64,000 nt of DNA. It comes from Sordariomycetes sp. S80-01Y. Its lineage: Eukaryota > Ascomycota > Sordariomycetes. The DNA lies in the NCBI GenBank assembly GCA_037042185.1, contig JAXQJY010000018.1:62001-126000 (forward strand), given 5' to 3'. Positions within the stretch are counted from its first letter, which is position 1, and each line of letters opens with the position of its first letter. The notes beneath the pieces are model-generated. The model worked only from the letters and a program-made list of their open reading frames with translations. It did no database searches and was not told the origin of the DNA. Shown one piece after another: positions 971 to 31,313 of this stretch. Position numbers and translations under genes: made by a program.

Positions 971-1939
971 CTAGGTACAGCGCATTCCTAGGGCAATCTT
1001 CAGTCGCCCCACCTCATCTCTCAGCCATTCATTCTGATGTTTCAGAGCTAGCAGCCTCTGGCTGGCTAGATCTAGTACAGCCCCCTTGCTCAGATTCCGG
1101 TATCCATTGTTGTCACTGTCACCGTCACCATATAAACTTATTACCCCCGAATCAGAGGAATCCACTGCTTCCAAGAGTCTCAAGAAACTGCTGTTCAAAC
1201 GGCAGCGATACTTCTTTTCAACTTCGTTATGGGTGGAGGCGTGGACGGTATGACCGTCACCTCCATTCCCAACGAAGCGCGGTGCCCTGCAGGGTGCTGA
1301 GCCTTTGGCCGCCCGCGAGGACGACTCGGGCTTAGGGCTTGTCTTTCGGTGATTATCGGCTCTCGACGAGCTAACGGACCCTGCAAAACGGTTTGGCGTT
1401 GGGTGCTCTACCTCGACTGGGCGTGGAGATTGTGTGCGTCGATTCCCACGCATCGTACGTCGCTTGACGGACATCTTAGGATCAGCTGCAGCCACTTTGT
1501 GAATAGAATGAGGAGTGGGCGGCACGTAATCGACCCCGTTGATCGGATCGATCTCAAACGCAGGCCACAGCGTCGTCGGTATTGGGGCCCCTGGAGCTTC
1601 TCTCATGTCCTCATTCGGCGAAGATGTAGAACTGAGGCTATCGTCATATCCTCCCAGGATCGAGATATCCTGGAGGAAGGGTGATGCAAACATCTCGGAG
1701 TAGATGCTGCTGAACTCTGCCGGAGACAAGCATGCGTCGGATGAGTAGTTCAGAGACGGCTAAGTAAGGTATGCAGTCAGCGATTGGTCTGGATGGAGCG
1801 ATTTGTGACAATATAGCGAGTGAATAATGGGTCTTACCAGACTAGAGTGCCTTGAGTCTGTCATGAAATTGTCGAGCGTTGCATCGCCGTCCATGTCGTT
1901 GGGAACAACGCACGTCTTGGGTGTAGGCAGTTGCTGCAT
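971..1939 (-). CDS. SREBP-type bHLH transcription factor 1
   Basis: Predicted 296-aa nuclear regulator in two exons, 1939-1838 and 1759-971, with a 78-nt intron (GTAAGA...CTTAG) that keeps the frame. The start is the first ATG of the upstream exon (peptide MQQLPTPK); the downstream frame alone has no ATG at its head. The C-terminal third carries the bHLH: basic region HNEVEKKYRCRLN, helix 1 SSFLRLLEAV, a long Gly/Asp-rich loop, helix 2 LSKGAVLDLASQRLLAL, then a short leucine-rich tail EWLRDEVGRLK. The Tyr in EKKYR is the hallmark of SREBP-family bHLH proteins, and long loops are common in fungal members. No transmembrane segment is present, so it would not need membrane release and resembles the soluble SrbB class rather than SrbA. 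The middle is Ser/Arg/Pro-rich and probably disordered. A paralogue lies at 12904-13790. Family assignment is firm; a role in hypoxia or sterol control is inference. Confidence 0.85.
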
Positions 1940-2643
1940 TTTGGAAAGTTGAAATAAAAACAGGTTGAAACGCAATGGGTTTGCGCTTTGAGGTAAAAGA
2001 TCGCTCTGGTTAGCTTCGTAACGAAGCTGCCCGAGGAGATGCGTGCATTTCTTTTGTACTCAAGCCATCATGCCACAATGCTGCTGTGAAACCTGGATAC
2101 TCGGTACCGCAGCAGGCGGAGCACACGTCGGGAGATGGCGGTTCCCTGGCCGACGCCTGTAGTCCGGCTACGCGATGTGGCGGCGGACTCCTTGGACTTA
2201 GAGCACTCGGAAGGCTCGGGAGGTTCGGGGTCGGAATCATTCGGCACGTAGGGTATTCCAAGCTGAGTCTGCACGGAGGGCATCGCCGCGAGGCTCCGAG
2301 GACTTGATAATCGGAGGCCACCGATCCTACAGGAGAGGGACTGTACTCTTTCTATGCATTTGTTCGACACTAAAGACGACTACCCACTAATCGAAAAAGG
2401 CTTTGTTCTGACCCTCCACGGCACCCGAACGAGTGTTCAGACAGATGTGTCCTTGGGCTCAAGGACACCTAGCATACCACACCACGAGCCTGGGCCTGTC
2501 TCCGCAGCCTGTTCGCAAATATGTAAAACAATGCACATAAAAGCCTACCGCCCAACGAAAGGCATAGTTATAGTGCGTACTTTAGGCGTTCCAAACACAT
2601 CAGCACGAGGGCCAGGCTTCACCATAAAATAAAATGAAGCCCC

Positions 2644-2683
2644 CGGTCATTGTGACACCGGTCATTGTGACACCGGTCATTGT
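2644..2683. repeat. Short tandem repeat, 15-bp unit
   Basis: Two exact copies of the unit CGGTCATTGTGACAC (2644-2658, 2659-2673) are followed by a third that matches for about 10 bases and then diverges. The unit contains the partial palindrome GTCATTGTGAC. It is non-coding and of unknown role. Confidence 0.8.
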
Positions 2684-4300
2684 TGTCACAGAACCTTGAC
2701 CCACTGGCAGACAGCCAGGATCATTTCGACTTGTAGACGATGGCTCTCTGAACAATTGAGAGGCAATCGTACTGTGTATATATCCAGTAGTACCATGACT
2801 GCCGGAGTCGGCCACACGGGACAGTGAAGGGTCATGTGGTGATACGATAGATTGAAAACCTGCACAGACGAGCCATCGTGAGCAAATGTATACTTGTACT
2901 GACAAGCCTGGCTACGTACTTCTGCGGATTTATCACCTCTTACTGATGAATTCATCGTGACTGCAGCTTCGAATCCACGCATAGGTCCGAGCCAGTCACC
3001 GTCACTGCCTGTGATTCACGCTGCTTATTATCCTAGAGCGCTGCCAATGACGAACAAAGCGACCGAGCCATGACGATGTGGCCAGGAATTTGCAGGGAAT
3101 ATGTACTGCAGTGCTACAGAGAAGAATCTCCCGTTGCTTATACTTTATTGTTCATTGAGTAAGCTTCTGGGATGTGGTATTTGTGTTTTTTTGTTTGTTT
3201 TCAGGTATCTCTCCCAACGCGCTCTAAATATTCTCGGCTGAATTACATTGCTCGCTTGTTTTGGTTCTATGAATGCTCGTGGGTTTGAAGTCAAGCCCGA
3301 AGCGGAGGTATAGTACCTATTCAATGAAAATTATCCCAAACGTTGAATGGACCCTATGGAGACCACAAGCACCAAGTCCCACCGCTCAAGGGGGAACAAC
3401 ACGAGCGAAGTGATTTTGTCGAGAAGACTGGTTCGAGAGCAACCTATGAAACGCCGCACCACTATCAAAAATCCAGGCTCCTATGTGGATGTGACAGGAG
3501 CCAAGATGCAGGGTCAGAGAGGTGGTCTCGCCAAAGAGTGGAACATAGTCCGAAAGTCATTCTATCTTACAACTCAACACCACGTGGCATGCTTCAATCA
3601 AGCAATTTTGCCGAAAGTACACGTACGAGGGTCTGCGGATACGTTTCCGCACTTTGCCTTGTTAGACTGCAGTTCACGCATAGTCAGCAATCTCTTAAGC
3701 AGTCGAAGTCAGACCAAACTGATGCAGCGCACGCTATCTGTCACAATCTGTACCCCTTTCATGCCTTTCCTATCTGCATCTCGCTCCCTTTCAGCGTCAC
3801 CTGTGCATGTGCAAAGAGAACGGCGAGCTTACAACTGCTTTTGATGCTACGGATCTGAATGATGCCAAGGCTCGCAGCGGACGAGACCTCCCTGTTGAAA
3901 TAGACCAGATCTGGTGAAGTCCTGTGTTGTGGATTCGTTTCGCCAAGGCTGCATTCCTCTAACCATGTCGAAACCCTGTCGCCGCTGTGAGCTCATTGAT
4001 GCAGGGAACGGAATATAAGGCTTTTAATTGCCCAAGCCGTCACAACACGGCAGCGGAACACATATGTGAAAGCACTTATTAGCAATATTTCGGGGGGCTG
4101 GAGGCAATTTGCAATCTGTACATATAGATGCAAGCATAGGCAGGCCTAGCCAAAAGGAATGTTTTGAACGCGAAGTCCGCTTTGCGACTTAGCATAAGGG
4201 GACTCTGGGAGGGGAATAGCACTCCAAATGAAAAGTCGGCGGCCCTGACGTTGGCATTCTTCTGCCATCATACCATAGTCATGCCATGCCCGAGGCTTGA

Positions 4301-4311
4301 TGTGGCGTGAT
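4301..4311 (-). promoter_or_regulatory. SREBP-site-like motif, one mismatch
   Basis: The minus strand reads ATCACGCCACA, one base off the fungal SREBP (SrbA) consensus RTCA(T/C/G)(C/G)CCACY as I recall it. It is not close to a confident start codon: bHLH gene 1 begins 2.4 kb away. It may be chance. Confidence 0.15.
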
Positions 4312-5725
4312 GAGTGCCCTGTGCACCAAGATCCTCATGTTACCACCAGTCATTTGATTTGGCATTGAGTTTTGGATTCAGCATTTATATACATCTATCG
4401 TGACACGCCTTAACGCCAGCTGTAAGAATCCAGAGCTGAGGAGTCTTTTCCGACACAGCTGCGAGGATCCCCCCACCCAAGTGCATAACACTGACCGCTC
4501 CCGCAAGGAAAGGATTCAAATTAAAGCTTGTTATCGACGTGTCTGCCATCTCACTCTACCCAGAACGCTGCCGCGCTACTGGCGTTAGTGACACCTTCTC
4601 CGAGACTCGACAATCCCTCGAGAACTCCCATCACTAAATTGGCCAGACAATGCACAACTTCAATTAACCCTCTCAGCAAGACGATCATAATCTATTTACG
4701 GACATCCGCGAAACTGTGAAGCGTCACTCCGTTGAGCTCAAGCTACCCGATATCGTCGTCGCTGGAGACCTCTCGCTGGTGTGAACGGATCCCCGGACAC
4801 TGCTCCTTCAGGCGTAGATCAAGTGGCCAAATATAAAAGAAGGTTTCGCATCGGTGGTATTAGGGGCTGAATTTCAACAGGGAGCCTCCGGCGCGATGGA
4901 AGAAGCACCCCAACTCACTCATGTCCTCACTCATGGACGGCGCCGCTTCTGCGCTCGATTCACAACACCTTGTCTTGTCCGCAGCTTCAAGCCTACAACT
5001 ACCGTCAAGAAGAACAGTCGTGGCGAAGACAGCTCTAACAAACCCAAGCTACCCCCTTTGTCGCCTTCTGCTCCCTCGACAGGCGGTGCATCACAACCTG
5101 CGGCAGAGGATGGGGAGCATTCGAGCTCAACTATGATCCTGCCCGGGTTCCTTGCTTGATGATTGCAACATCCCAGTTCTTCTACCCACTTAGAGAGCTG
5201 GTGAAACGACAACATTATTATCTATGGCATTACCAGCTTCCAAGTCTTGGGGTATTGAATACCCGTGCGAGAAGACTTTGTTGGTCAGCACCAAGCACTC
5301 ACTTTGTTCAAGACTGCCGTCGCGATCGCGTTCCACGACGGAGCCGCCCTGCTTGAGAGTCCGTTTACCTCTAGCACACCCAGAAGACCCCGTCCTCCGC
5401 AATCCACGCAGAGTCGAGGGCAGATTGATGTTATGATCAGGGTATGGGACTTGGCAGAGTGAGCTACTTCGCCAACCTTGCAGCTGCAAAACGGAAACAG
5501 GAGTTTTCTCGAGAGACAGGGGATAAGGGCTTACCGCCCCGGGTCTTTCTCCCCACATTAATGCTAAATTTCCTGGGTATCGAAGGCTACTGGTACCACA
5601 TGCGAGTCGCATGTCCGAGTATCAAACGAACTAGGGCAGATAGATCCGACAAAGCACACTGTTCTCTATTCAATATGGCGGAATGCAATCAGACTCAACA
5701 TAAAGTATTGACTGTTTTCATCTTG

Positions 5726-6599
5726 CTAGGAAGATTCTAGAAGGCCGTCCAGTATTTTATCGACCATCCATCTCAGTAGCGTCTCAATATCGGCATCAAC
5801 AGGTGCCTCTCTCAGCACCTCGATACCGACTCTTTCCAACACGTCTTCCCTAAATCTCCCCTCAACGTCCCCGTTTTCGAACATCCAAGCATGATAATTC
5901 ACGTAGTTATGCCAGACAACCTTCTCCAAATACGCAGGCGGGTCAGCCCAGTATCCCTCACGCACGATGTACCCATTTCTCTCAAGACGACGCGCCTTAA
6001 CCTGTGCATATGAGGCACGTAGGAAGAACTTCAGATCAAATTTCGGCTGTATAAGAGCCATGGATGGGCCGTAGAGGAGAAAGCCCTCGACGAGGCAAAG
6101 GAAGCGAGGCGTGTTGACGACGGGGCCATGTGGGAGAAGAGAAGAGACCTTAGATCGTAGGGCGGCGATGGTCGACGGGGTAACGGAGCACTTGCCACCA
6201 AGATTTAGGTGTTCCTCGACATGCGAAGAAGGCTGCATCATTTGTCAAACATCATTGCCCTGGTTACCACAAATATGATCGAGGGAACTTACAGGTACAG
6301 ATGCGTGTTGTTCAACGTGAGAGAGTGCGTCTGCTAAATCTCGAAAGTTAACAGCGTCGGCGCAGTCCCAATCGAGAAAACCATTGTTTGATGGCACTCT
6401 GTGAAAGTCATTGCATGAACCCGAGAGTACTACATATTACTCTCCATATTACTTACGCTGCTTTTTGTTTATAAAAGTCATCTTCGTGGACGACACCGGA
6501 CTTGGGAAAGATACGCTGGAGGACGTGTGCAATGGTTGACTTGCCACTGCAAGAACAACCTGAGATGCCTACTATGAAGGCTTTTTTATCTGTGGGCAT
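5726..6599 (-). CDS. NRK1: Nicotinamide riboside kinase
   Basis: Predicted 251-aa cytosolic kinase that phosphorylates nicotinamide riboside to NMN for NAD salvage. Three exons: 6599-6457, 6398-6293 and 6232-5726; introns of 58 and 60 nt both begin GTAAGT, and the frame is continuous. The start ATG (MPTDKKAFIVG) lies directly before the P-loop GISGCSCSGKST at residues 11-22. Next come the substrate-site segment HEDDFYK, then NGFLDWDCADAV and the lid-region peptide FFLRASYAQVKARR. The length and the order of motifs fit eukaryotic NRK1, of the uridine kinase-like P-loop family. The last exon alone is open upstream into its intron, so a simple ORF call would give a false N-terminus. The gene stands alone between long intergenic regions and is the first metabolic gene of the proposed pyruvate/NAD island. 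Confidence 0.85.
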
Positions 6600-7465
6600 T
6601 ATAAGAAAATGCTATCCTTTGCCGTTTAGAACGGTGCGATCTGGGCTTGGTGCAGCTTCAGTATTAATTAATTGCAATAAGTAAACGCGCAATTATCCAG
6701 GACATCGAACATTGAACGGATGGTCGAAAGCACAAGCTACTGTGATTCAGTTATCTAGGAAGCTGCATATGACCACTAGAGTGATCCTCAGTCATCCTCG
6801 AGCGTGGAGTGATTGAAAAGCTGTGGTTATAACATCTGACCACATGCGATCGCCTACAGCATTTCCTGCCCCGGCTTCTTAGCGCATGCCGAGTTGACTG
6901 CAGCGCTGAGATCAAATCAGCCCTAACAGTCAAGCATGATCAAGTCGTCAGTCACAGTGTCCCAGTAGATGACACGTCAGGCTACGGCGTCGAATGACAA
7001 TAGAGACTCGTATGATTGAGCACGGTCAGACCATCACTCCCTCGAATCTCTGAAGTATATTCAATAGACTCCTGTTGTGTAAGAAGCGTTACGACCACTG
7101 ACACGAGGTCCCGAAATACACCATTTGCCTCAGAAATCCAAAAGATTCCGGCAAATTCGTGCTGGTCCAACGAGCGCAGTTTCAATACATGCCCCAGACA
7201 TCGTTGGTTTGCCGGATAGTCTTGGGCAATCGCCATTCACCTCGCCCTAATGCATGTAATAGATATTGGCGATAGTGCTATATTCGGTAAGCCATTGACT
7301 TAGAGATCCAGGTGTAACATATATCAACTGGCCTGTGACCGCTGCTCCGAGTGTTTCAGGAATCTTCCCCGAACACCGTTTCAAGCAAACGTTGATACTC
7401 GTGACCAGGCTTAAACACATCAAGACTCTCGAGAAAGTCAAAAAGTAAACTGTACATACATCATC
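6600..7465. other. Intergenic upstream of the kinase gene
   Basis: Presumed promoter of the minus-strand NRK gene. Minus-strand frames at 6982-7236 and 7247-7441 are short and unrecognised. Confidence 0.4.
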
Positions 7466-8476: not shown

Positions 8477-10171
8477 CTATAGTGCAACAGGGCGACGAGC
8501 ATTAGCAGCCGCAACAAAATGGCCCCACGTAATGAGCTCCCTGCTACAGTCGTCCTGGTGAATGATACACTCGATCAGTGTCGGTCCATTCTGGTGCGCT
8601 ATAGCCCTCTCGAATGCTGCGGACAGCTCATCCGCGGACTGTGCCTTGATCCCAAGAGGGCGTCCGCCTTCATCTCCCGAGCTGAATGCCTCAACCAACC
8701 GTGCATAATTCCAATTTTGTATACGGTTATACAGCCCGTCATGGATCTCAGCCTCGATCGTGTAACCCCTGTTGTTCATCAGGACAATAATGATAGGGAG
8801 GTGATGTCTGACCATTTGCGAAACCTCCTGGACGGTCATCTGAAAAGCTCCATCGCCCACCAAGACTATCGCTCTTTTCCCTGGCTTTGCAAGTACATAG
8901 CCGAATGAAGCAGGAATTGTCCATCCGATGTGGCCCCACTGCATCTCGATTTGGAACTCTGCTCCACGCGGAAGACACAGTTGAATACCATTGAACCACG
9001 AGTCCCCCGTTTCGGCGAATACCGTCGTCTCAGAGGTCAAGAGAAGTTGAGTTTGTCGAGTGATTTCCTTGCGCATCAGCTTGCTAGGACCACGTGCCGC
9101 GAAATCAGGGGGATGGTCAACGCGCAGACGGTTGTATTCGATGATGGTGTTGTCGTTCCAGCTCACATTTAGAGCAAGCCCGGATAAGAAGTCATTGAGG
9201 TTGACACGAGTAAACTGGGCGTGCCGGCCAGGTATAGACACGGCGTTCATATCGGCAGTCAGCTGTGGGATGTTGGGTAAGGCTGTCCATCCAACAGTAC
9301 TGTAGTCGGTAAAGACTGTACCAACACAAAGGAGCGTGTCAGCCCAATTGACGATGGCGTCAGCAGCTAAGGTGCTGACCTGTCCCCAAAAGATGCCCGC
9401 GAATTGGGCATGGTTCTCCGGGAACGAGCCCTTGGCCGCTGGCTGGAGAACGACAGCGCACCCGATGGCCTCAGCTAGTAGCAGCAGCTCCTCCTCCGCA
9501 CCAGCCCTCTGTAACTTTGGCCCTACAAGCATGACGGGCTTTTTTGTGGTATTGAGATACTCCGACGCCTTTTTAATTGCCATGTCTAGCGCATTTGTGT
9601 CACTTGGTGCAGATTCGACGATGGAGCTGGCGGGTCCTGGTTGTGCGCATCGTTCGTTGGATAGATTGGTCGGAACTTCAATGTACGCCGGCTTTGACTC
9701 GAGAAGGGCTGTTCGAATGGCTCGGTCGATCAGCTCCGGGGCTTGGTCGGCGTTCTTGATAGCCACGGCGCAGCATGTGATCTTCTTGGCCATTTCGAGC
9801 TGGTAACTGAAATCATCTTCTCCGAGTGTATGGTGCAACAAGTGCCTGTTCACATCGTTTGTGTTTGGCGCGCCACTGATCAAGATGACAGGCAGATTCT
9901 CCGCATAGGCGCTACCGATTCCATTGAATGCTGAAAAGGCGCCAACACTGAAAGTTACGACACAAGCACTTGCGCCATTGGCGCGTGCATAGCCTTCGGC
10001 GGCTAGGGAGCAGTTGAGTTCGTTGGTGCATCCCACCTCGGTCAAGTCTGGATGTGCTTCAAGTTTGTCGAGGAGAATAAGATTGTAGTCCCCAGGCACA
10101 ATAAAATGATGACGGATTCCGATATGAGCAAGCCTCTCCGCAAGGTACTTGCCCACTGTAAAGAAAGGCAT
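8477..10171 (-). CDS. Pyruvate decarboxylase, bacterial/plant-like
   Basis: Single-exon 564-aa thiamine-diphosphate enzyme that converts pyruvate to acetaldehyde and CO2, the committing step of ethanol fermentation. Visible signatures: TNELNCSLAAEGYAR with the catalytic Glu at about residue 51; the His pair in HLLHHTLGEDDF at 113-114; AETGDSWFN near 387; EMQWGHIGWTIP near 409; and the ThDP/Mg motif from GDGAF (439) to NNRGYTIE (466-473). The length equals the usual 560-570 aa. As I recall them, these segments run closer to Zymomonas and plant PDC than to yeast Pdc1. The absence of introns also sets it apart from several spliced neighbours. The start MPFFTVGKYLAERL matches the family N-terminus exactly. 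It is cytosolic. With the PPS and LDH genes further right it forms a pyruvate-using set. Confidence 0.95.
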   Translation of the reverse strand: MPFFTVGKYLAERLAHIGIRHHFIVPGDYNLILLDKLEAHPDLTEVGCTNELNCSLAAEGYARANGASACVVTFSVGAFSAFNGIGSAYAENLPVILISGAPNTNDVNRHLLHHTLGEDDFSYQLEMAKKITCCAVAIKNADQAPELIDRAIRTALLESKPAYIEVPTNLSNERCAQPGPASSIVESAPSDTNALDMAIKKASEYLNTTKKPVMLVGPKLQRAGAEEELLLLAEAIGCAVVLQPAAKGSFPENHAQFAGIFWGQVSTLAADAIVNWADTLLCVGTVFTDYSTVGWTALPNIPQLTADMNAVSIPGRHAQFTRVNLNDFLSGLALNVSWNDNTIIEYNRLRVDHPPDFAARGPSKLMRKEITRQTQLLLTSETTVFAETGDSWFNGIQLCLPRGAEFQIEMQWGHIGWTIPASFGYVLAKPGKRAIVLVGDGAFQMTVQEVSQMVRHHLPIIIVLMNNRGYTIEAEIHDGLYNRIQNWNYARLVEAFSSGDEGGRPLGIKAQSADELSAAFERAIAHQNGPTLIECIIHQDDCSRELITWGHFVAAANARRPVAL

Positions 10172-12903
10172 GGCGGACAGGCGAGAAGCAACACAACGAA
10201 GTTGATATGACTCAGGTTTCTCGCTGTTGAGAAGACGTTGGGGTATTCTTTAGCTGTTATTGCCATGAGTGGTATTTCATCAATACTACAGGGGTGGGGC
10301 ACCAGTTATACGAAAGGTTGTCATGGTGTATGTAGAGGGATTGCTATTCGGGATGAGATCGTATCACCCGCGGTGCCCCACGCTTCTGAAAACAGTGGCG
10401 TGGCTCAAGAACTTACCACCTGCTACAATCTCATGACATGTCGAGATTGTGACGACTTTTCCTGTGCTGATGATCCCGGCGAACTTCTCGACGGCATGAA
10501 GCGGACTAATCGAGCTGACTGACGATCAAACAGACCATTGGCATCATACCGCAATTGATCGTTGAGTTGTGTCATGTTTTAAGGCTGCACTATTTCGGAT
10601 CAAGTGCAAATTTCGAAGCTCACTAGCACAACTGTCTGTCGATTAGTGGTATTGCCAATCGCGGTAGGATTAACTCCAGCGAGAGGAGACACCAGGGAAG
10701 TGCTAGACAGACTGCACGCGATAGACGGAGGTAATCGTCGATTGTAGTACAGGGTTGAAGTTTAGCATTCAGAATCAGACCACAATGGTTCGAGTTTTAA
10801 CAAGCTTTGACGGAATGTGAGTGCTCTTGAAAGTGGACCAGAGCTATTTTTCTTTTCTCTTCTTATAGCTGAATCCGTCATGTGGCATATCTTGGCTGAA
10901 AAGATTAGCCTTCAAGCCTTGTCACAATCCTTGGCACTGCCTCAGACAACACCAAATGAAGTAGAATCTTATCAAGGAGATATTCATACATTATACGGAA
11001 ACCCGTCGATTCAATCCTGTTACATAGAACGACGGTCCAGTTGAGCTTTGCGCCAGAGTCAGGCGTTCTAGAAGCTACAAAGACAATCTATATCACGATT
11101 GCCTTCTACAAAGCTTACACACTCTTGTCGAAAGCAGTCTTCGGCATTTTGCCCCACTTTCAGGTCACCAAAACCTACTTGCGAAGCATTCATACATCTC
11201 ACGACATAACAGTGCTTAAGACTTTCGCTATCCTGTCCACTTTGAATATACCATAAGGGCATGAAACCAAGTGATTCAAGGGGTCAGGGGAAATACGTGC
11301 CGCTAAATCCACGTCCAAATGCTGAAATCTGACTTGGTTGCGAACAGCGGCGATCTATAAGAGGATCACAGTCTGGACACCATGGCTCGATGAAGTGTTT
11401 ATGAACTTGAGAAAATTGGGAAACCAGCCGTTCGTTGTTTAACCTTCAGAAATATAGCTTCGAGGATGCTTAGGGGCTTGGAATGGGGTTGATATAGATC
11501 ACGACGAAACAAATCATCACATGCTCAGAATACCCAGCGATAGCCAGAGGACAAAAGATACGATATGCGTCTGCGCGAATCAAAATGGTGAAGTCTCGCT
11601 CCTGTGTCGAAGCTATGGTTCGGTCTCCAGATGACCGCTATGGTCTGACGGGGGTGCAATGGTCAGGCCACTAGAAGATGCTGTGTAGCATGAGAACAGG
11701 GCTTTGGCCGATTGGAATATCGATCGAATTTAGTAATGATCCATATTCTATATTTTGGGGACTAGACCCGGTTTTTACATTCCCACCGGTTGGTGTGTCA
11801 TGCCAAAACCCTTTTCTCAAGCATCCATAACACATCTCAGCGGTGAACGCCGCAGAGCTAAGGACTGCAATTGTCGCAGAACGGTCGCAAACCTTGGCTC
11901 GTTACTGGATCAAAGAGATCAACCCCAAACCGCCAAAACAGTGGCAAGATCCATCGACGAATACTCACCAGAGGAGGTTCGAGAGACCCCGGGCCGCTCA
12001 AGCTACCAAAACACTTTACGTCCCACACAACCCCCCCTCCCCGGGCCAAACATTGCCCTCGAGAACCCTCAGGCTCTTGAAGACTGAGGTCCGCGCCCAC
12101 GAACAAGGCTCTACGTTCCAGGGTCTTGGGTCCAGATAAAGCGAAGAAACTATCTCTAGCTACCAGACGTGGCAACCCGACATTCGAGGCACACTTCTGG
12201 TATGTGTCATTTGCCGAGGAGTGGAAGCCGCCAGTCCTTTGAGTCATGGCTTCAACAAGCGACGCTGCAAACCCGAAATGTGGATGAGCTCGAGGCGAGA
12301 TGCCGCAAGGCAGTCTGCCACAGGGAGATGCTGTCCGACCACAATCCGATTACACGCAAGGAGTAATTGAGCGTTTGGTCGAATGATATTCGCAGCAGTT
12401 GGACGCGTAACGCTCGCGAAGTCCATCACTAAACTTCCTGCCCCGCTCCCACTCTTAGCCACTGACTGGTTGAAACGTCACTCGCGAGAGTCCAAATCTA
12501 GACCGCCGAGTTCCTAAGCCTCGACCAATACGCAAACCCTAATCATCCAGGTATGGTGGTAGTAGGTAAGCCGCCATTGCGGTAGATCACCCCAGAGGGC
12601 ACGAATGCGGTCACACGTAGTCGCGTCCTCCGCCGGCGCTGGACACTGTTCACCAGTAGTTAATCTGGTAGCGAGTCACTACATCTCGAACCGGGCAGTG
12701 GGCTTCATCAAGAGATTTCACGAGACTTTTGGACTTCTATACAAAAGGCACCGCGTGTGACGACCTCTTGGACGGCACTGGCGTGACGCATGCTAGAGCT
12801 GCCGTATCCTTGCCCACAGGCACAGACCCGTAACTTCACACTTACTCATCTTTCAACACAAATACGTCAAAATTCCCATAGAGGTGCTTCCATCAGCGTG
12901 GGC
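10172..12903. other. Long intergenic stretch
   Basis: The first few hundred bases are the presumed promoter of the pyruvate decarboxylase gene. The motif ATCACCCGCG at about 10364 partly resembles an SREBP site. Frames at 10817-11262 are short and AT-rich. A GC-rich block at about 11755-12470 is open in several frames on both strands but shows no recognisable domain and could be a decayed repeat. No gene is called. Confidence 0.4.
12586..12596 (+). promoter_or_regulatory. SREBP-site-like motif upstream of bHLH 2
   Basis: The sequence ATCACCCCAGA agrees with the recalled fungal SREBP consensus in all but the last two positions, and its first nine bases equal those of the classical sterol element ATCACCCCAC. 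It lies about 310 bp upstream of the second bHLH start codon, so autoregulation is conceivable. Evidence is pattern only. Confidence 0.2.
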
Positions 12904-13790: not shown

Positions 13791-14481
13791 TGAGTATGGC
13801 TGAAGCATTCGTGGTGGTTTTTTGAATTTTGAATTTCAGATGTCGATAAACTGACATATTCTTCCTTATCTTTCCACAATCCCGGAGATCACTGCCACAA
13901 GTAGAAGTCAAGAGCACTCCCCTGTGACTATAATAGCATCCAGGTAGCCAGTCGCGTTGTCGAGCTTCGTACCACAACAACCATATCCACTCTGAATTGG
14001 AAAGCCGGAACCGCGATTCTACTATAATTTCAGTATATATTACACCCTCTATTCAAGTTACTTCAATATGAATGCTGATTAGATTTGGGATATATCTCGC
14101 GGAAAGGAAATGAAAGGTCGACCATCCGTGGTATTCGAGCTCCTCCTAGACGGTATGAGCCATCACATGAGAAGCAACTCTACAAGGGGTTAACCAGCTA
14201 TTAGGATTGTTTGCTTGTTCTCGGTTGTCTTGGTGTAAATCATCCAACACTTTATTGCACCAAAAGCCTCAGCAATGCATCTAGAAGCTATCGTGGAGCA
14301 CGGTTAACCAACAATTATGTTCCTGCTGCATCCTACGAGCCCCCCCATTGAAAGGCTTTTTTGGTAAAGAATTGCTTCGTGGCCAAACATACCAGAGACG
14401 ATTGGCAGCACAGTTCTATACTGAATCCCGTTGGCGAACAGCCGAAGAATCCGACGGGGTAAGGGAAGTGCAAAGTTTCTC

Positions 14482-21604: not shown

Positions 21605-23665
21605 GGCAGCTTCGTTTGCTATTAAGCACACCCCACGTTGTAACGGAGAAGATCCATACGGACCAGCACGAGGCATCGTACTCTAGTGTGACCCCGCACT
21701 CCGGCACATGCCGAAGATCGATTCTGTGGACCCTTTCGTTCCTTTTGGCAGTCAGACCACAGTTAATTAAAGATCTGGCAAGGTTTTCAATTGCAGCGTT
21801 GTGGTTCGCTGGTCTTTCCATGAGCCCAGCAGTCAGCCCACCACGGCACATAGTGGGTAGGGGAAGGTCACTACTGATACCAGACACCGCGACAGGCTAG
21901 GGTTGAATACTACTTTAGAACGAAGATGCCTCTTTTCAGCTCTGCCTCTATACGCGTGCCTACAGTCCTTGAAACAACGATCAACCCGAAACAGCAGAAC
22001 ACAATCCCGACCACAGTCGTCCTCGGCCATACCAACACGATGAACGAAGTGCCAGAGAACGAGACAGCCAAAATCTCATCCACTGAGACAATGGAATCTT
22101 TCCAAGTCGCCCAGCTTAGGAACGACGATTCACATAGAAGCCAGCATGGCGCCGTAGCAGATGCTACGGGGCCAGCCCCTGGCTCTGTCCAGAGAGCAAA
22201 CACGTTCCCACAGTGGGTCCCAGCAGTAGGGTGTCATTACTGTTTTAGCAGGGAAGAATTCAAGCACGAAATTCATAAGTCTTTCTGCGCCAAAGTGAGC
22301 ATTGGACCTGGGTTCAGTGAGGAGTCATTTGTACATAGCAAAGACGAATAAGTTGTACCCGATCAAGCTATCTTCCATCTTCGTGTCTTTCAATACCACC
22401 TTGCCGTGCCAAGACTGTAGTATGCAATGAAAGCAACGAGAGGGCGAGAGATGTTTGCAAAAAGCTATCACACGGAATGAAGTTTACAGAGCTTGGAACA
22501 CACTGCGGATGACACCAGCGGAAACCCACCGCATTCAAAAGGCGGCCTGGAAGCGGAGCAACTAATGCCTAGTCTTCTTCCTCCTTGTTCAGCTTGGACA
22601 TGCGTTGATTCCATCGTTCAAATTCTAATTCTGAGAGCGAGCGAGAGTCAAATGGGGACTAACAATATTTCTGACCATTGCTGACGAGGTCAACGGCGGA
22701 GACCTGCACCTCTTACATGTGGCTGCGAAAGGATCTCATCTAGACCGCGCCCCTGAAAGTCTGAACCCATGCTCAGGTCTGTTTTGTTGTACCGCTAGAT
22801 ACAAGTCGGGCATCGGTACTCTGGCCCGTTTCTCTTCTAGCATAGACATCAGGAATCATTCAGGGCTTTTTCATGTCATTCCTACAGATCGAAGGAAACC
22901 CCTCGCATTATATCCAGGCTATGTTGAGCTGGATACATTGGCTCAAATCGCAAGTTCCAGGCCTTCGATCTTTCGCCAAAAGTCACAGTGGGTTGATCGA
23001 CAAACATTTGACTGTCTGTATCGCTTGACCTGTACGATCCTTTGTGGAGTACGGAGGTGGGTAACGGCGGCTCGTGGCATGATTGTGAAATGATGATGAC
23101 ATGGTGGCACGACGAGTTGTGCTTTCTCGGAGGGAGACCGCACCGATAGGTCTCTGCATGCGACAGCTTGAGATTCAGACGTGGCGGGCAGAAGAGGACA
23201 ATCTCTAACTCATGTTCATCCTGCGGCACATCTTTGCCGTCATCAGCAGGCACCAGTTCCAGCTTTTACTCGCAATTGTGCGCCATGTGCAGGCCAGAGT
23301 AGCGAATCATATCGAATTAGGCGTCTTATTTCTGTGCTTCATGGATATTCTGGAAACCTTTCTCTATTGAATGACACGATGAACAGTCCCCCATGGCTCA
23401 GCATGGCGTGATGAACCGCTCTATAGAGCCGAGAAAAGTGTATTGCCTAGACTACTGTGGGAAATCTCGCACATTATCAGCACCATGATGATAGACTTCC
23501 ATGGATGTATGTATATAGAACAGATCTGAGGGTTGTAACATAGCTGAGAGCAAGTTTCCGGCGCACATTGGTTTGTTATCTGAGCTTCACTTATCGCGCA
23601 ACTATCGTCATCACTATTGAGAGAGTCCGTCCATATTGTCGACTGTCACCGAGAACTCCGAAACC
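21605..23665. other. Intergenic between divergent genes
   Basis: About 2.1 kb separates the Zn2Cys6 factor (-) and the PEP synthase (+). A plus-strand frame at 21926-22351 (141 codons) contains GCHYCFSREEFKHEIHKSFC, vaguely zinc-finger-like; the opposite strand is also open with two hydrophobic stretches. Neither is convincing. The rest probably holds both promoters. Confidence 0.35.
21832..21842 (+). promoter_or_regulatory. Full match to SREBP-site consensus
   Basis: GTCAGCCCACC fits the recalled A. fumigatus SrbA motif RTCA(T/C/G)(C/G)CCACY at every position. It lies about 230 bp upstream of the Zn2Cys6 factor start codon. Binding is inference. Confidence 0.3.
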
Positions 23666-26044
23666 ATGGCCTCTGGACGGTGGACTCACAATCTTGAGGA
23701 TCTCAGACTCGCTGATGGCGCGCTAGTCGGTGGGAAGAATGCTTCTCTAGGGGAGATGATTTACGCACTAGGATCGAAAGGGGTCCCCGTGCCGCCTGGA
23801 TTCGCAACGACTTCGTATGCATACTGGCACTTCATCGACGCCAACCATATCAGGGAGAAGATAGCCACGCTGGTCACTGACTGGCAATTGGGCAAGCTCA
23901 GTCTTGCCGAAACTGGCACCTTGGTGCGTTCTCAGTTTCTCCGTGGGACATGGCCGGCAGAGGTAGCAGCAGCGATAAAAGCAGCGTATCGCGACCTCAC
24001 TGCCAAGACGGACGTTCCGAGCCTCAGCGTCGCTGTCCGATCCAGTGCCACGGCTGAAGACCTGCCCGACGCCAGTTTTGCTGGTCAGCAAGAGACGTAT
24101 CTCAACGTTATTGGTGAAGACGCTGTTATGGACGCCTGCAGGCGTTGCTATGCCTCCCTCTTCACAGATCGCGCGATGAGCTACCGGCAAGCGAAGGGAT
24201 TTGACCACATGAGCGTCGCGCTGTCGGTCGGCGTGCAGCGTATGGTCCGCTCTGATGTCAGCGGCTCTGGTGTCATGTTCTCCATTGACACAGAAAGCGG
24301 GTTTGACAAGATCGTACTTATCAACGCCGCGTGGGGATTGGGCGAGAATATTGTACAAGGAACTGTCAACCCCGACGAGTATCAAGTGTTCAAGCCGCTT
24401 CTGGGCGATGCTACTCTGACCCCGATACTAGAAAAGAAGCGCGGCAACAAGACGATTAAGATGGTGTATGGTGACAAGCTCACACCAACGCGCAACGTGC
24501 CCACGTCGAAGGCTGAGCAGGATGCGTTTGTACTGAGCGACGAGGAAATCATCCGGCTGGGACGTTGGGCGTGCACTGTTGAGCGTCATTATGGGTGTGC
24601 CATGGATATGGAGTGGGCAAAGGATGGAATCACGGGCGAATTGTTCGTCGTCCAGGCTCGGCCGGAGACTGTGCACTCACGCCACGATCCAGCAGTCCTG
24701 AAGACCTTTAACATCAGTAACACTGGCCGCCTCTTGTCTACGGGTCACTCCGTTGGCGATGCGGCTGTCTCGGGTCGCGTTTGCCTGATTGGATCGGCTA
24801 AAGATATGGACAAGTTCGTCGATGGCTCAATATTGGTTACGGGATCAACCGATCCAGATTGGGTGCCTGTAATGCGGCGGGCCACGGCTATAGTGACTGA
24901 CTATGGCGGACGCACCTCACATGCTGCCATAGTCAGCCGTGAGCTTGGCCTTCCAGCCATAGTTGGAACCGGAAATGCCACGTACTCGCTACACAGTGGC
25001 CAGGATGTCACCGTTTCCTGTGCGGAGGGCGACCGTGGCTTCGTTTACGAAGGCTGCTCCGACATCACGACCCAGACGGTAGACTTATCTGCGTTGCCTG
25101 AGGTCCGGACCGACATCATGTTGAATCTCGCCAATCCAGCAGCCGCCTACCGCTGGTGGAGACTTCCCGCCGATGGTATCGGGCTAGCTCGCATGGAGTT
25201 CGTCGTTAGCAATGTTATCCGGGTCCATCCTATGGCGCTTGTCCACATCGACCGATTGAGGGATACGGAAGCCAAGCAGGAGATTTTACGACTGACTGCC
25301 GGATACAGCGACAAGCCTGACTATTTCGTTGATAAGTTAGCACACGGGTTCGCAGCATTGTGTGCCGCCGTGTATCCCAAGCCAGCCATCATCCGCATGA
25401 GCGACTTCAAAACGAACGAATACGCTGGCCTCATCGGCGGCGCTGAGTTCGAGCCCAAGGAAGAGAATCCCATGCTGGGCTTCCGCGGCGCCTCCCGCTA
25501 CTACTCGGCCCGTTACAGAGAGGGTTTCGCTCTCGAATGCCGCGCCATCAAACGGTTGCGGGAGCAAATAGGGCTTACGAATGCTATTATAATGATACCT
25601 TTCTGCCGGTCAACTGACGAGGCAGACAAGGTTCTGGACGTAATGGCTGAAAATGGACTCAGACGCGGCGAAAATGGGCTGCAAGTCTATGTTATGTGCG
25701 AAATCCCGGCTAATGTCATCCTCGCTGCCGACTTTGCGGAGCGATTCGATGGATTCTCTATCGGTTCCAACGACTTGACGCAACTGACACTCGGCGTCGA
25801 CCGCGACTCGAGCGAGCTATCCGGCCTTTTCAACGAACAAGACGAGGCCGTCAAGTGGATGATATCGCGGGCCATCACCGTAGCTCGCGAGAACCGTCGC
25901 AAGATTGGCATTTGTGGACAGGCGCCGAGCGACCATCCGGAATTCGCCAAGTTTCTGGTAGACCGAGGGATTGACTCGATATCTGTCAGTCCAGATAGCT
26001 TTGTCTCGGTGAAGAGGCATGTGGTAGCCAGCGAGGGGGTTTAA
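23666..26044 (+). CDS. Phosphoenolpyruvate synthase (PpsA-type)
   Basis: Single-exon 792-aa enzyme catalysing pyruvate + ATP + H2O to PEP + AMP + phosphate. The start is the ATG in ACCATGG giving MASGRW; the frame is open 10 codons further upstream without an ATG. The length equals that of E. coli PpsA as I recall it. Domains in order: ATP-binding PPDK_N with GGKNASLGEM near residue 20 and VRSSATAEDLPDASFAGQQET; the swivelling phosphohistidine domain GGRTSHAAIVSRELG with the phosphorylated His at about 419; and a C-terminal PEP/pyruvate TIM barrel with NPMLGFRGASRY, GSNDLTQLTLGVDRDS and the catalytic Cys in GICGQAPSDHP at about 750. All catalytic signatures are intact. PEP synthase is typical of prokaryotes and rare in fungi, and the lack of introns fits an acquired gene. 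It would run opposite to pyruvate kinase, feeding gluconeogenesis from lactate or pyruvate. Confidence 0.95.
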   Translation: MASGRWTHNLEDLRLADGALVGGKNASLGEMIYALGSKGVPVPPGFATTSYAYWHFIDANHIREKIATLVTDWQLGKLSLAETGTLVRSQFLRGTWPAEVAAAIKAAYRDLTAKTDVPSLSVAVRSSATAEDLPDASFAGQQETYLNVIGEDAVMDACRRCYASLFTDRAMSYRQAKGFDHMSVALSVGVQRMVRSDVSGSGVMFSIDTESGFDKIVLINAAWGLGENIVQGTVNPDEYQVFKPLLGDATLTPILEKKRGNKTIKMVYGDKLTPTRNVPTSKAEQDAFVLSDEEIIRLGRWACTVERHYGCAMDMEWAKDGITGELFVVQARPETVHSRHDPAVLKTFNISNTGRLLSTGHSVGDAAVSGRVCLIGSAKDMDKFVDGSILVTGSTDPDWVPVMRRATAIVTDYGGRTSHAAIVSRELGLPAIVGTGNATYSLHSGQDVTVSCAEGDRGFVYEGCSDITTQTVDLSALPEVRTDIMLNLANPAAAYRWWRLPADGIGLARMEFVVSNVIRVHPMALVHIDRLRDTEAKQEILRLTAGYSDKPDYFVDKLAHGFAALCAAVYPKPAIIRMSDFKTNEYAGLIGGAEFEPKEENPMLGFRGASRYYSARYREGFALECRAIKRLREQIGLTNAIIMIPFCRSTDEADKVLDVMAENGLRRGENGLQVYVMCEIPANVILAADFAERFDGFSIGSNDLTQLTLGVDRDSSELSGLFNEQDEAVKWMISRAITVARENRRKIGICGQAPSDHPEFAKFLVDRGIDSISVSPDSFVSVKRHVVASEGV

Positions 26045-27001: not shown

Positions 27002-28077
27002 TTAGCAATGGACATCCCAATCTTCGTAGATCCGATCAAGGGTATTTCTGAGTACCTTGGCCGACTCGGCTATTTCTGAGTCCTCTTTGCTGTTCAATGG
27101 AGTAGGGATCATGCCAAGGAACCCTTTTCTGCCTACAACCACTGGCATGCTGAAGTAACAACCAAAGTCTGGTTGGAAACAACTGAGCGGCCGAATATTG
27201 AGCTTGTCGGATGATATAGACACGCAGATACTGGAGACGATGGAGCCAATCCCAAACGGAGTTGAGCCTTTGGCTCTGGATATGCTTTCCGACCGACTCT
27301 TACATTCATCTTCAAGCTCTTTGCGGTCGATTCGAGTGTTTGGCGGGAGCGATGTGCCGATCGCGACGCCACCGATTGTTGCCATCGACCAGGCGGCAAC
27401 CTGAGTGTCTCCATGCACACCCAAAACATATATATCGATCGAGTTGGCCGCCACCTCGGATCTGATGAGTCTTATTTGGGCATAAATTCTATAGATTGAG
27501 TGGCACTCACTCCTGCCTTGTCTGCAACCAGGCCACGAAGTCGAACCGAGTCGAGAAATGTCCCAGACCCCAGGACTTGGGACGTTGGGAGGCCGGAGAG
27601 CTTTTGTGCGAGAGAAGTCAGCAGATCGACCGGATTTGACACGATCACCAGGATAGTATCCGATTTGAACGGTGTCATAGAGTCGATAGCGCGTCGAACA
27701 ATCGAAACGTTCCGATACACCGAGTGGAGCTTGGTTTCGCCTGGAACGGATAGCGTAAGCATCATGGCATCTAAGAACACGATTCTCCCGTCGAAATACT
27801 TACCTGTCTTAAACCTTGACCCTGCAGTCACGACCACAATGTCACACTGGCCCGCCTCAGGGTATGTGGCTGCCCGGACCCGGGTGCTACTATTGTTGCT
27901 ATAAGCCACGTCTGCAAGGTCACACACTTGGGCATCTCTCAAGTTTACGTCGACATCAACTAACAGCAGCTCATTCGCCACTGAAGCTAAAATAAGGGCA
28001 TAGGCAGCAGCTCCACCGACTTGTCCAACGCCGACAATGGCAATCCGTGATACGGACTTGGTGCGTGCGGGTGTCAT
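27002..28077 (-). CDS. L-lactate dehydrogenase-like enzyme
   Basis: Predicted 318-aa NAD-dependent 2-hydroxyacid dehydrogenase of the LDH/MDH family, exons 28077-27804, 27740-27511 and 27454-27002, introns 63 and 56 nt. The Rossmann motif VGVGQVGGAAAYAL is at about residue 15. Catalytic elements are present: SNPVD, LDSVRLR (Asp168 and Arg171 of LDH numbering) and the catalytic His in GVHGDTQ (His195). The specificity loop is unusual: TAGSRFKTGETKL aligns with the LDH pattern AGANQKPGETRL, giving Phe for Gln102 and Lys for Arg109, and Val replaces Glu in GEHGD. Interconversion of pyruvate and lactate is therefore likely but not certain; another 2-keto acid is possible. The second intron uses a GAG acceptor. 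Intron 1 lies inside the specificity loop and is in frame without a stop. Confidence 0.85.
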
Positions 28078-29098
28078 TGTTTCGCAACGGACCTGATCTT
28101 CTTGGTTTAGGTTGGGGAGCTATTACAGCTTGTTGAAGAAATGTTGGTGATAACAGTACGTTTCCTGCAAATAGATGCGGAAGGTAGACGTTTTATGTTT
28201 CATTTGCGTAGACGTGAGCTGTCCGGAAAGAAGCAGTGAGTAGTAATCTATGGTTTGCTTCGGGCGTTAGAGGAGTTCTAAATTCGTTGTTATTCGTGTG
28301 ATATACTTGGCACGCATCCTTCGACCTAGAGTGGTGCCATGATTACTCAAAAAGCCATCGGTTCCAAGTGAGCCAGGCAACCGCCGTACTTCGACTACAT
28401 GATTTCCAACACCAAATATAAGTCAATGACATGATATGCATTAGAATGAACTCAATCTCTCTACTCAACTAGAAAATTTAAACTCTGACATCTGAAGAGA
28501 CCTTCAAGAGATAGCGCTCTCGACCAGTCGATGATTGTACCATGGTACATGATATGAGGCCACTATCGCCATATCTTGGCTATTTTGACCAAGCGGAGGC
28601 CATCGGAGGCCGAAATGTGTCGCAGACTATTGCTGAAGTGGGAAGAACGTTGCAGAGTATGTTATCGTTGGATTTACATTCAGTCCAGCGACATGTCTTA
28701 CGCACATCGAACCATTGTGGCGTTATCGTCACATCATGGCAACACCACCCATATTCAGTACCGAAGTAGCTGTCTACTCCTATTAGCTGCTGTTCCTATA
28801 CTTTCAATGAGAGTTTCGGGAGCAGAGCTTCCGTATCTTCCGTGCTGACATCGGAATCCACAATTAGCAGCTCCGGAGCATGGCAGCGCTTGTGGTTGTC
28901 AAAGGTAATGAGGACCACGTATATTAAGTCCAAGCTCGGATTCAACTGCAACACTCCAGTGCAAATATAATTCCCCATTACAGCCCAGCTTTGCAAATTG
29001 ACGACTTAAGTGCAAGTTCCCAAAGCTCCTGCTTCACGACGACTACCTACGTTTTCAGCACCTTGCATTCAGAAGAAGAGTCTATTCAAGGGCACAGA
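28078..29098. other. Divergent promoter region, LDH / Hsp20
   Basis: About 1 kb between the LDH start (-) and Hsp20 copy 2 (+). Frames at 28542-28848 are short and unrecognised. I saw no clear heat-shock element. Confidence 0.45.
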
Positions 29099-29572
29099 AT
29101 GGCGCTTTTCTCTCACAGTCATAGAATCGACCGCCCATTCCCACCTCTTTTCCATCTCCTCGAAGAGTTCGACACATATGTGCGTCAGGCTGGTGGGTAC
29201 AATGCCGAATGGCAACCGAAGTTCGACATCCACGAGACCAAAGATGCTTACGAACTCAACGGGGAGCTTGCGGGGATGAAGAGGGACAATGTCAGCATCG
29301 AGTTTACCGACCCGCAGACGATGCATATCTTCGGCCAGGTTGAGCGGAAGACAACTTCGGGGCCTAAAGCGAGCGACGCAGCGCAAAAGGAGGACGCCAA
29401 GCAGCCGAAAGCTTGGCTGACCGAGCGCAGCGTTGGCAAGTTTTCGCGCGTCTTCACCTTTCCAAGCCGTGTCGACAGCAGCAGGGTCAACGCGAAGATG
29501 AACGATGGTATCCTCACGGTCATGGTTCCGAAGGTAGATGCCCAGGAGGCCCAGAAGATTACGATTAAGTAG
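29099..29572 (+). CDS. Small heat-shock protein Hsp20, copy 2
   Basis: Predicted 157-aa intronless alpha-crystallin chaperone of the fungal Hsp30 group. The frame is open upstream, but the first ATG is at 29099 (MALFSHSHRIDRPF). The domain begins at WQPKFDIHETKDAYELNGEL (about residues 41-60), continues with VSIEFTDPQTMHIFGQVER, is split by a Lys/Ala-rich linker, and resumes with FSRVFTFPSRVDSSRVNAKM and DGILTVMVPK. It ends KITIK, the usual C-terminal strand. It is a cytosolic ATP-independent holdase. Compared with copy 1 at 16186 it lacks the intron and has a shorter linker. Its location between LDH and an unknown duplicated-module protein supports a stress-related neighbourhood. Confidence 0.92.
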   Translation: MALFSHSHRIDRPFPPLFHLLEEFDTYVRQAGGYNAEWQPKFDIHETKDAYELNGELAGMKRDNVSIEFTDPQTMHIFGQVERKTTSGPKASDAAQKEDAKQPKAWLTERSVGKFSRVFTFPSRVDSSRVNAKMNDGILTVMVPKVDAQEAQKITIK

Positions 29573-30581
29573 TAGTTCCTTCACATACCCACCAAGGAAA
29601 GATTGAATGCGGAGTATGGTGAGCGTTGAGCTAGCTTGTTCCAAGAATGAATATTGTTTGGTCTCACCAAGCTTGGCGTTACAACACAGCACGGCAGAAC
29701 AAATTGGGGTCATGCGAATCGCTGAAGAAGACCTAAACAGCTCCAAGCTCAATTTAACAAATTGCTCTGACATCTATGGAAATTCGATTTGCAGCAGGAT
29801 ATAGTGATACCATATTTCGTGGTGCCGGTGATGCCCTTCATTTTACAGCCGCGTATTATATCATTCCAGTCTTCTAGCGAACCTGGTGAAAGTTTCGTGT
29901 GCTTGGTGTCAGAGTATCACACATTGGATAGACTGAGAGGGGATATGCTAGTGAGATTTTGTCGGTAACAACTTGATGTTAGCGATATCTTGTCCCGCTG
30001 GTGCAATATGGCACGGTCGAGATCGCGGTGTCATGATTGCTTGGTAGCCTGATTGGCTGGATAGTAGGTTTAGAGGATGGCCTGATCATTGCTTTGAGTT
30101 TGACCGCTCGTTCTTCGTGGTGTGAGGCTCGTCATGCCACAGCCAGTGTGGCTTCTCATTGCAGCACCATGAGGTTGGGCCTGCCACGCGTGTCCTCGAT
30201 CGATATCACGGAGGAATGGATTCTAATTGATCAGAGCAATATGCACGTACTGAAGAGGTTGAATTCCTGACCACACGATTCATTTAACCTTGGCATGATT
30301 ATCCGAAGGCCAAAGGGGAGGGTATCACGCCACCTAGTCGGGTTCAGCTTACGAAAACCACAGGATCAAATGCGTACAAGTATCAAGCGACACCGCGCCC
30401 ATCAGGTGCGGATAGATATTTGAATTCTAAAATCGGATGATCTTGTTTCTCTCATGCTGACATAGCTTAAAACGCCATTTCTTTGCTCACATACGAGAAC
30501 TATCCCAGTCCACTACTGACGCCGTGGACATTTCAACCTCCACAATAGGCTGGTCGACGTCGATAACACGCTGCGGCTAAG
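29573..30581. other. Intergenic upstream of duplicated-module gene
   Basis: No gene seen. A short plus-strand frame at 30037-30270 has no recognisable content. It contains the SREBP-like site at 30324. Confidence 0.5.
30324..30334 (+). promoter_or_regulatory. Full match to SREBP-site consensus
   Basis: ATCACGCCACC fits RTCA(T/C/G)(C/G)CCACY at all 11 positions and lies about 250 bp upstream of the start codon at 30582. It is the clearest of the SREBP-like motifs in the island. The regulation is inferred. Confidence 0.35.
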
Positions 30582-31313
30582 ATGGAAACAGGCGCTGGGC
30601 AATCGGAAAGCGTTCCAGAGCTTCTCTTCCACACTATCCTGACTGTAATTCACCACAATAACGAATCCGGCAACGGCCATCTGGATACCTATGTTCTCGG
30701 CACGCGAACCACCCTAGAAGCTGCAAAGAGCTTCGCGAAGCACTCCTTGACCTACTTCGGTTATGCCAAGGAAGAGTTTGAAATCTATGAAGAGAGAACA
30801 CCGGGTGTCGAGTGGAAACATGGCGATGGAGTCATGGTCTACGGCAAAACCGCAGCCCAGCAGGAAGTTCTAGTCACCATCGATACGAAACCCAACACAG
30901 GACGGGTACTTGCTGCTCCCGATGGCACACTGTTGCTGCCCGGCGGAACGGACCATTTACACTACGTCCTTCAGAGCGTTGCAAACTACAATACCAGTCG
31001 CGTGGAGTTGATTGAGATTGAAGGCGCCTACGCTAAACGAGTCGACGCACTAGCGGCGGCAAAACGGTGTCTCATTGACGGCAACATCAGAAGGGAAGAT
31101 TACGCCCAATACGACGAGCGCGACGATCTGAGTATGCCACAAGACTGGCCTTTCGGAGAGGACGTTATCGTCCACGCCGTCAGTGCGAACGGAGAAAACT
31201 ACTTGGTTTCGTTGAAGATTCCCCCGTTCGCCTACGAAAGACATCACAAGCGCAAGCTCGAAAGCCATCGGCATCGGCATCGGGACGCAGGGAAGCAGAC
31301 GGTTTCCATTTAG
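30582..31313 (+). CDS. Unknown protein with duplicated module
   Basis: An intact, intronless 243-codon frame starting METGAGQSESVPELL. I do not recognise a named family. It contains two related segments of about 65 residues: one with TLEAAKSFAKHSL, then EEFEIYEERTPG, DGVMVYGKT and EVLVTIDTKP; the other with VDALAAAKRCL, then EDYAQYDERDDL, EDVIVHAVS and NYLVSLKIPP. Each combines an Ala-rich helix, an E/D-x-Y-x-x-Y-(D/E)-E-R motif and two beta strands. The tail is His/Arg/Lys-rich (HRHRHRD). There is no signal peptide or membrane helix, so it is probably a small soluble protein. It lies at the right edge of the island and has a consensus SREBP-like site in its promoter. Confidence 0.75.
   Translation: METGAGQSESVPELLFHTILTVIHHNNESGNGHLDTYVLGTRTTLEAAKSFAKHSLTYFGYAKEEFEIYEERTPGVEWKHGDGVMVYGKTAAQQEVLVTIDTKPNTGRVLAAPDGTLLLPGGTDHLHYVLQSVANYNTSRVELIEIEGAYAKRVDALAAAKRCLIDGNIRREDYAQYDERDDLSMPQDWPFGEDVIVHAVSANGENYLVSLKIPPFAYERHHKRKLESHRHRHRDAGKQTVSI

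Follow-up and report, generated by a model that had tools for sequence, protein, structure and literature searches.

A bacterial-type phosphoenolpyruvate synthase gene beside a lactate dehydrogenase-like gene, and a separate bacterial-type pyruvate decarboxylase gene, in an accessory-like segment of a Sordariomycetes genome

The first 31 kb of a 64,000-nucleotide stretch from Sordariomycetes sp. S80-01Y (GenBank assembly GCA_037042185.1, contig JAXQJY010000018.1, positions 62,001–126,000; the whole stretch is called the window here) carry genes for a pyruvate decarboxylase (PDC), a phosphoenolpyruvate (PEP) synthase (PPS) and a lactate dehydrogenase (LDH)-like enzyme. The reading that we favor, with some reserve, is that of an accessory segment holding a probable PPS/LDH-like pair, in which PPS was acquired horizontally and which is matched by AN5843/AN5842 of Aspergillus nidulans, together with a separate bacterial-type PDC, the other genes being neighbors with no shown link to these. 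Such a segment would be a case in which two central-carbon enzymes of bacterial type have settled in one accessory region. The gene types named in the preliminary description of this DNA were found to be real by domain or profile matches, namely PDC, PPS, an LDH-fold gene, a nicotinamide riboside kinase (NRK), two Hsp20s, two bHLH proteins and one Zn2Cys6 factor; the joint regulatory role that it proposed for them is weighed below.

The PPS gene (23666–26041, plus strand) is one open reading frame (ORF) of 792 aa from a bacterial plasmid-type clade. Its product scored 1079.7 bits against the equivalog model TIGR01418 (cut-off 739.75) over profile positions 4–782 of 784, that is over the full length, in agreement with the earlier assignment, and contains both GGRTSHAAI and GICGQ, motifs that we take to hold the catalytic His and Cys, respectively. 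Judged by its sequence, the protein is a complete PEP synthase (pyruvate, water dikinase). To our knowledge, neither a PEP synthase nor NAD-linked lactate fermentation is generally ascribed to filamentous fungi. The 15 best plasmid relatives shared 67–69% aa identity over 97–99% of the protein and were all alpha- or betaproteobacterial, the closest being from Methylocystis rosea (69.4%), and 54 of the 457 matching plasmid records fell in the 60–80% identity band. A match at E 1e-100 or better was present in 110 of 299 genomes, five at 60–64% identity and the other rows at 54% or less. The likeness to plasmid-borne ppsA of Methylocystis, Rhizobium, Agrobacterium, Paraburkholderia and Phenylobacterium extended to the same clade in a tree of 21 of the 27 PPS rows, with the window protein as the only fungal entry, where its set of nine rows (SH-aLRT 96) also held six plasmid PPS proteins and two further rows. 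Horizontal acquisition would most simply account for a bacterial-type PPS in a fungus.

Six plasmid PPS regions, taken from the 457 matching records, were examined for their neighboring genes. Hsp20 with GroEL was found in two of the six, a universal stress protein in two and BON proteins in three, while an alcohol dehydrogenase, a hydroxyacid dehydrogenase, FixJ with acetate kinase, and a hydrogenase occurred in one region each. Bacterial PPS therefore tends to sit among stress and redox genes, giving an apparent low-oxygen theme to these ppsA neighborhoods; of their stress and redox genes, however, the window repeats only the Hsp20 theme.

The LDH-like 2-hydroxyacid dehydrogenase gene (27002–28077, minus strand; introns 27741–27803 and 27455–27510; splice model of 318 aa) adjoins PPS tail to tail, with 0.96 kb between them. 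In the A. nidulans annotation, consecutive AN numbers usually denote neighboring genes. According to the available text of the two sources, the A. nidulans LDH is AN5842 (PMC4684279) and AN5843 is pdkA, there called PEP synthase (PMC3641053), so that genes annotated as LDH and as PEP synthase carry consecutive tags, as in the window; this likeness is one of annotation, and the accessible parts of PMC4684279 and PMC3641053 mention no PDC at that place. By annotation and locus numbers, the consecutive tags suggest a conserved PPS-LDH pair, and the window pair is probably old and matched by AN5843/AN5842. The adjacency goes unremarked in the available text of PMC4684279 and PMC3641053, no publication naming both AN5842 and AN5843 was retrieved in a literature search, and none of the titles and abstract openings listed in literature searches concerned a fungal PPS-LDH cluster; the available text of PMC11708051 does not deal with these enzymes. 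The preliminary description had staked its proposal in part on a conserved co-location of the PDC, PPS and LDH genes in some relative: since AN5842 and AN5843 are consecutive, such a co-location probably exists for PPS and LDH, whereas none was seen for PDC, these A. nidulans locus numbers being the sole evidence found for conserved linkage.

The LDH-like protein contains both LDH domains (Ldh_1_N, E 4.6e-28; Ldh_1_C, E 4.1e-22). It scored 260.2 bits against the L-LDH equivalog TIGR01771, below a cut-off of 303.55 that is set for bacterial and archaeal annotation, and 182.1 bits at best against malate dehydrogenase models, placing it closer to L-LDH. In the alignment it keeps Asp168, Arg171 and His195, which we take to be the catalytic residues (LDH numbering), and shows Phe in place of Gln102, presumably the pyruvate-choosing residue, and Lys in place of Arg109, presumably in the substrate loop. 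Gln102 and Arg109 were kept in all five annotated bacterial LDHs aligned with it (picked from the best 15 of 100 matching plasmid records), and comparison with the two best PDB chains showed the same two changes. The earlier view of an LDH that makes lactate thus goes too far; as far as sequence allows, the enzyme is LDH-like only, and its lactate role is unproven. A putative counterpart, An04g08220 of Aspergillus niger, came from a search that used AN5842 and two further LDHs and, when expressed, had no LDH activity, even after an Arg was changed back to the catalytic His, as described in the available text (PMC4684279); its expression values of 0.09–0.63 in one table of the part of PMC6862759 that was available are close to silence. 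Since the window protein, unlike the A. niger one, keeps this His, it may be active on some substrate. An LDH-like gene with a lost lactate residue could help to explain why the A. niger “LDH” failed in lactate assays, and a pair of PPS with such an altered enzyme would indicate a pathway acting on a 2-hydroxyacid as yet unknown.

The PDC gene (8480–10171, minus strand) is likewise a single intact frame, of 564 aa, and belongs to a bacterial clade. The three TPP-enzyme domains are present (Pfam), as the earlier assignment to PDC would require, and the closest relatives are bacterial PDCs. Against PDB, the best match was the reconstructed ancestor ANC27 (695.6 bits), followed by nine chains at 595–624 bits, presumably bacterial PDCs with Zymomonas among the organisms, the best yeast-type chain reaching 256 bits. 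The stretches GDYN, NELNC, LHHT and TIE..IHDG, assumed here to be the active-site stretches of PDC, are all kept. Among plasmid records, the best match was from Granulicella tundricola pACIX903 (59.9% identity over 99%), followed by Gluconobacter at 49%, these bacterial PDCs sharing 49–60% identity with the window protein over 99–100% of its length. One scan of genome contigs returned a single locus, in a Methylophilaceae metagenome-assembled genome (MAG), at 56%, and of 299 genomes drawn from that MAG's phylum, three had a match at E 1e-120 or better, the MAG included. The window, Granulicella and Methylophilaceae MAG proteins grouped together (SH-aLRT 99) in a tree of seven rows, made by a quick method after three duplicate rows were dropped and with the window as the only fungus. 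In Granulicella and the MAG, genes for an MFS transporter and, next, an outer-membrane protein come after PDC, an order that the window does not have. This order spans positions 1972–6983 of record L001 and 11995–16422 of record L002, and the outer-membrane protein is OprD-type by Pfam in the MAG and “beta-barrel” by annotation in Granulicella. No relatives of PDC, PPS or the LDH-like enzyme were found in viral contigs.

A parallel for bacterial-type PDC genes in a fungal genome is the yeast Candida (Wickerhamiella) versatilis, which carries bacterial PDC xenologues according to the available parts of PMC5897096 and PMC11140947; it differs in being a yeast that has lost its native PDC, and the likeness is one of description, not of sequence. 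In Aspergillus fumigatus, as given in the available text, there are three PDC genes, the most distant being 33% identical to A. nidulans PdcA, and the mRNA of all three rises under hypoxia (PMC3141044). For the window, the best reading of the relationships is a bacterial-type PDC that would have been acquired separately from PPS. Transfer of both genes as one bacterial block was considered and found no support, the nearest relatives of PDC and PPS being different and no PDC-type gene lying beside PPS in the six plasmid regions; because the nearest bacterial relatives differ, nothing shows that the two arrived together.

The segment itself looks like an accessory region of a filamentous fungal chromosome with ordinary gene density. 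Between 974 and 31310 there are 12 gene models, covering with their introns 12,585 of 31,313 bases; since this amounts to one gene per 2.6 kb, the stretch is not sparse, and its earlier description as “gene-sparse” does not apply. PDC and PPS each consist of one open frame, while the NRK, LDH-like and Hsp20 B genes contain GT-AG introns and, once spliced, read without a break. The GC content at third codon positions (GC3) of the 12 genes was 0.52–0.69 (measured on the first exon for the Zn2Cys6 gene) versus 0.65–0.91 for the open frames of nine chosen genes after 31.7 kb (Mann-Whitney U=1, P=1.9e-4), with a sharp step at 31300–32700, near 31.4 kb. Intergenic GC was alike on both sides (0.48 in the first part and 0.45–0.55 in four stretches of the second). 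The GC3 step together with similar intergenic GC therefore speaks for accessory or turnover DNA and not for foreign DNA with its own base composition.

In the favored reading of a PPS/LDH-like pair and a separate PDC, the LDH-like dehydrogenase would interconvert a 2-hydroxyacid and a 2-oxoacid using NAD(H), and PPS would convert pyruvate and ATP into PEP, AMP and phosphate. As PPS would make PEP directly from pyruvate, three-carbon acids could return to gluconeogenesis with no need for pyruvate carboxylase and PEP carboxykinase. PDC, 13.5 kb away, would be a second, separate bacterial-type gene that turns pyruvate into acetaldehyde, and the chaperones, the kinase and the transcription factors would be neighbors with no shown link. 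Three points weigh against this reading. The proposed direction of transfer is drawn from trees in which the window is the only fungus, and the orthology of the window pair with AN5842/AN5843 comes from annotation and locus numbers, not from sequence. The third is statistical. In simulations assuming 12,000 genes, 15–30 pyruvate-using genes and a stretch of 12 genes, a stretch with at least two pyruvate enzymes arose in 17–55% of simulated genomes and one with at least three in 0.05–0.95%; if the LDH-like enzyme uses pyruvate, the latter frequency would favor a functional group. The triple of PDC, PPS and LDH-like enzyme would then be unusual, for a theme chosen after the genes had been seen, and the verdict on it turns on the LDH-like substrate.

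A gathering by chance of unrelated genes in a gene-turnover zone, with PPS and the LDH-like gene neighbors by accident too, is rather unlikely in our view. The simulated frequency for two pyruvate enzymes per 12 genes agrees with it, as does the low GC3 common to all 12 genes, which a turnover zone would give, and PPS and the LDH-like gene, being convergent, share no promoter; under this explanation, however, the consecutive tags AN5842 and AN5843 would have to be a coincidence or plain inherited order.

A dedicated pyruvate/low-oxygen cluster, in which PDC and LDH ferment, PPS re-assimilates, the Hsp20s protect and the bHLH and Zn2Cys6 factors regulate, appears quite improbable. Three possible pyruvate enzymes within 20 kb, the probably conserved PPS-LDH adjacency and the stress and redox genes that neighbor PPS in the six plasmid regions are in its favor, but the different bacterial relatives of PDC and PPS, the lost specificity residue of the LDH-like enzyme and the A. 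niger putative counterpart, annotated as LDH, inactive on lactate and near silent in one table, are all against it. Its regulators were examined further. The genes for bHLH protein 1 (974–1759, minus strand; last or only exon, start not fixed; Pfam HLH E 5.3e-6) and its paralogue bHLH protein 2 (13113–13787, plus strand; HLH) encode proteins sharing 36.7% identity over 166 aa. The best PDB matches of bHLH 1 were SREBP-1a (E 0.32) and, second, yeast TYE7 (E 0.97), neither significant. The preliminary label “SREBP-type” holds for the Tyr of the basic region, EKKYR of bHLH 1 aligning with EKRYR of SREBP-1a and bHLH 2 having EKNYR. It does not hold in the sense of SrbA and Sre1, which have DUF2014 and a membrane segment according to the available text of PMC3894159: HLH was the only Pfam domain above cut-off in bHLH 1 and 2, with no DUF2014, and no membrane segment was found, the best 19-residue hydropathy being 0.73 and 0.64 versus 1.78 for a transporter control. 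Because they have neither feature, the two proteins are not SrbA or Sre1, a further point against the low-oxygen cluster. In build they resemble Tye7, likewise a short bHLH that carries the SREBP tyrosine but lacks DUF2014 and that, in yeasts, controls genes of glycolysis (available text of PMC3894159), and TYE7 was the second PDB match of bHLH 1; this likeness lends the cluster some support, but the match is not significant and the same text confines the Tye7 family to Saccharomycotina (PMC3894159). The third candidate regulator, the Zn2Cys6 gene (19425–21676, minus strand), has several exons with introns not resolved and a Zn_clus match (E 1.2e-6) in its first exon.

The upstream regions did not speak for joint control either. 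Nine known patterns were sought in 12 upstream regions of 1 kb (for bHLH 1, whose gene start is not fixed, taken from the end of the open frame) and compared with 300 first-order Markov resamplings. No heat-shock element (HSE), sterol regulatory element (SRE) or E-box pattern was common to the regions of PDC, PPS and the LDH-like gene: a single HSE dimer was present upstream of PDC and of PPS and a single Sre1-type site upstream of PDC, while LDH had none of either. No HSE dimer was found in the 1 kb upstream of Hsp20 A or Hsp20 B. Eight of the nine patterns were not enriched over the 12 regions, CreA-type sites numbering 46 versus 37.1 expected (P 0.08), with 4, 2 and 4 upstream of PDC, PPS and LDH, respectively. 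The remaining pattern, TCACNCCAC, occurred four times versus 0.4 expected (reached in 0 of 300 resamplings, with no correction for the nine tests): NRK and Hsp20 B have one such site each in their upstream regions and the 30582 ORF has two, and PDC, PPS and LDH have none. Given this promoter pattern, bHLHs that are not SREBPs, the lost lactate residue and the differing relatives of PDC and PPS, the joint switch between fermentation and re-assimilation, dedicated to low oxygen, that was first proposed exceeds the evidence and is unproven. More doubtful still is a fungal pyruvate node put together from bacterial genes of separate origin (a low-oxygen PPS of plasmid type, an acidobacterial-type PDC and a re-specialized LDH-like enzyme) and kept with short Tye7-like bHLH regulators of its own as a conditional fermentation and re-assimilation cluster.

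Movement of the group as a block by a Starship-like cargo-carrying element is scarcely credible: the low GC3 of every gene, the step near 31.4 kb and the bacterial-type genes inside would fit it, but no transposase or tyrosine-recombinase domain was found at E 0.01 in 128 of 201 ORFs, no repeats of at least 40 bases were present in the stretch and there was no signature of repeat-induced point mutation (RIP), the RIP index being negative in all 32 bins, so that a mobile element was rejected as the leading explanation. The ORFs were those of at least 62 codons starting before 31.6 kb; of the 73 left out of the scan, 72 touch a gene model and one (28799–29005) does not. Apart from HSP20-type matches, the scan gave one weak match to AbiJ_NTD5 (E 0.0066) and nothing else. 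The captain of a Starship is a tyrosine recombinase (DUF3435); none was seen in these 128 ORFs, and an element could reach past the start of the window.

The genes that the favored reading treats as neighbors with no shown link include the NRK-like gene (5726–6599, minus strand; two GT-AG introns, splice model of 251 aa), whose match to human NRK1 (E 3.8e-16 over residues 2–75) supports the NAD-precursor kinase named earlier. Hsp20-family protein B (16186–16867, plus strand) has one intron and 197 aa (Pfam HSP20 E 2.5e-12), and Hsp20-family protein A (29099–29569, plus strand; Pfam HSP20 E 2.5e-17) runs in the opposite direction, away from the LDH-like gene, with 1.0 kb between the two. The window Hsp20s shared just 29–42% identity over 53–167 aa with the Hsp20s of two bacterial PPS islands and therefore did not travel with PPS recently; a recent bacterial origin of these Hsp20s is not supported. 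The remaining models are an uncharacterized acidic ORF (18061–18612, plus strand, 184 aa) and an unsupported ORF (21926–22348, plus strand, 141 aa), both with no Pfam match, and an uncharacterized protein (30582–31310, plus strand, 243 aa) with no accepted Pfam match and an unusable AlphaFold model (pLDDT 34.7).

No tRNA and no Rfam match was found in the stretch. A perfect 15-base tandem repeat of 2.7 copies lies at 2643–2683, and the SRE-core-like TCACNCCAC occurs at 4302, 6804, 15781, 24677, 30117 and 30325. The rest of the window (31746–64000) is ordinary-looking and encodes an NmrA-like protein, an OPT transporter, a carboxylesterase, a mitochondrial carrier and a Bsd2-like protein, as well as PCMT, a metallophosphoesterase, a glycosyltransferase, a subtilase and two AMP-binding enzymes.

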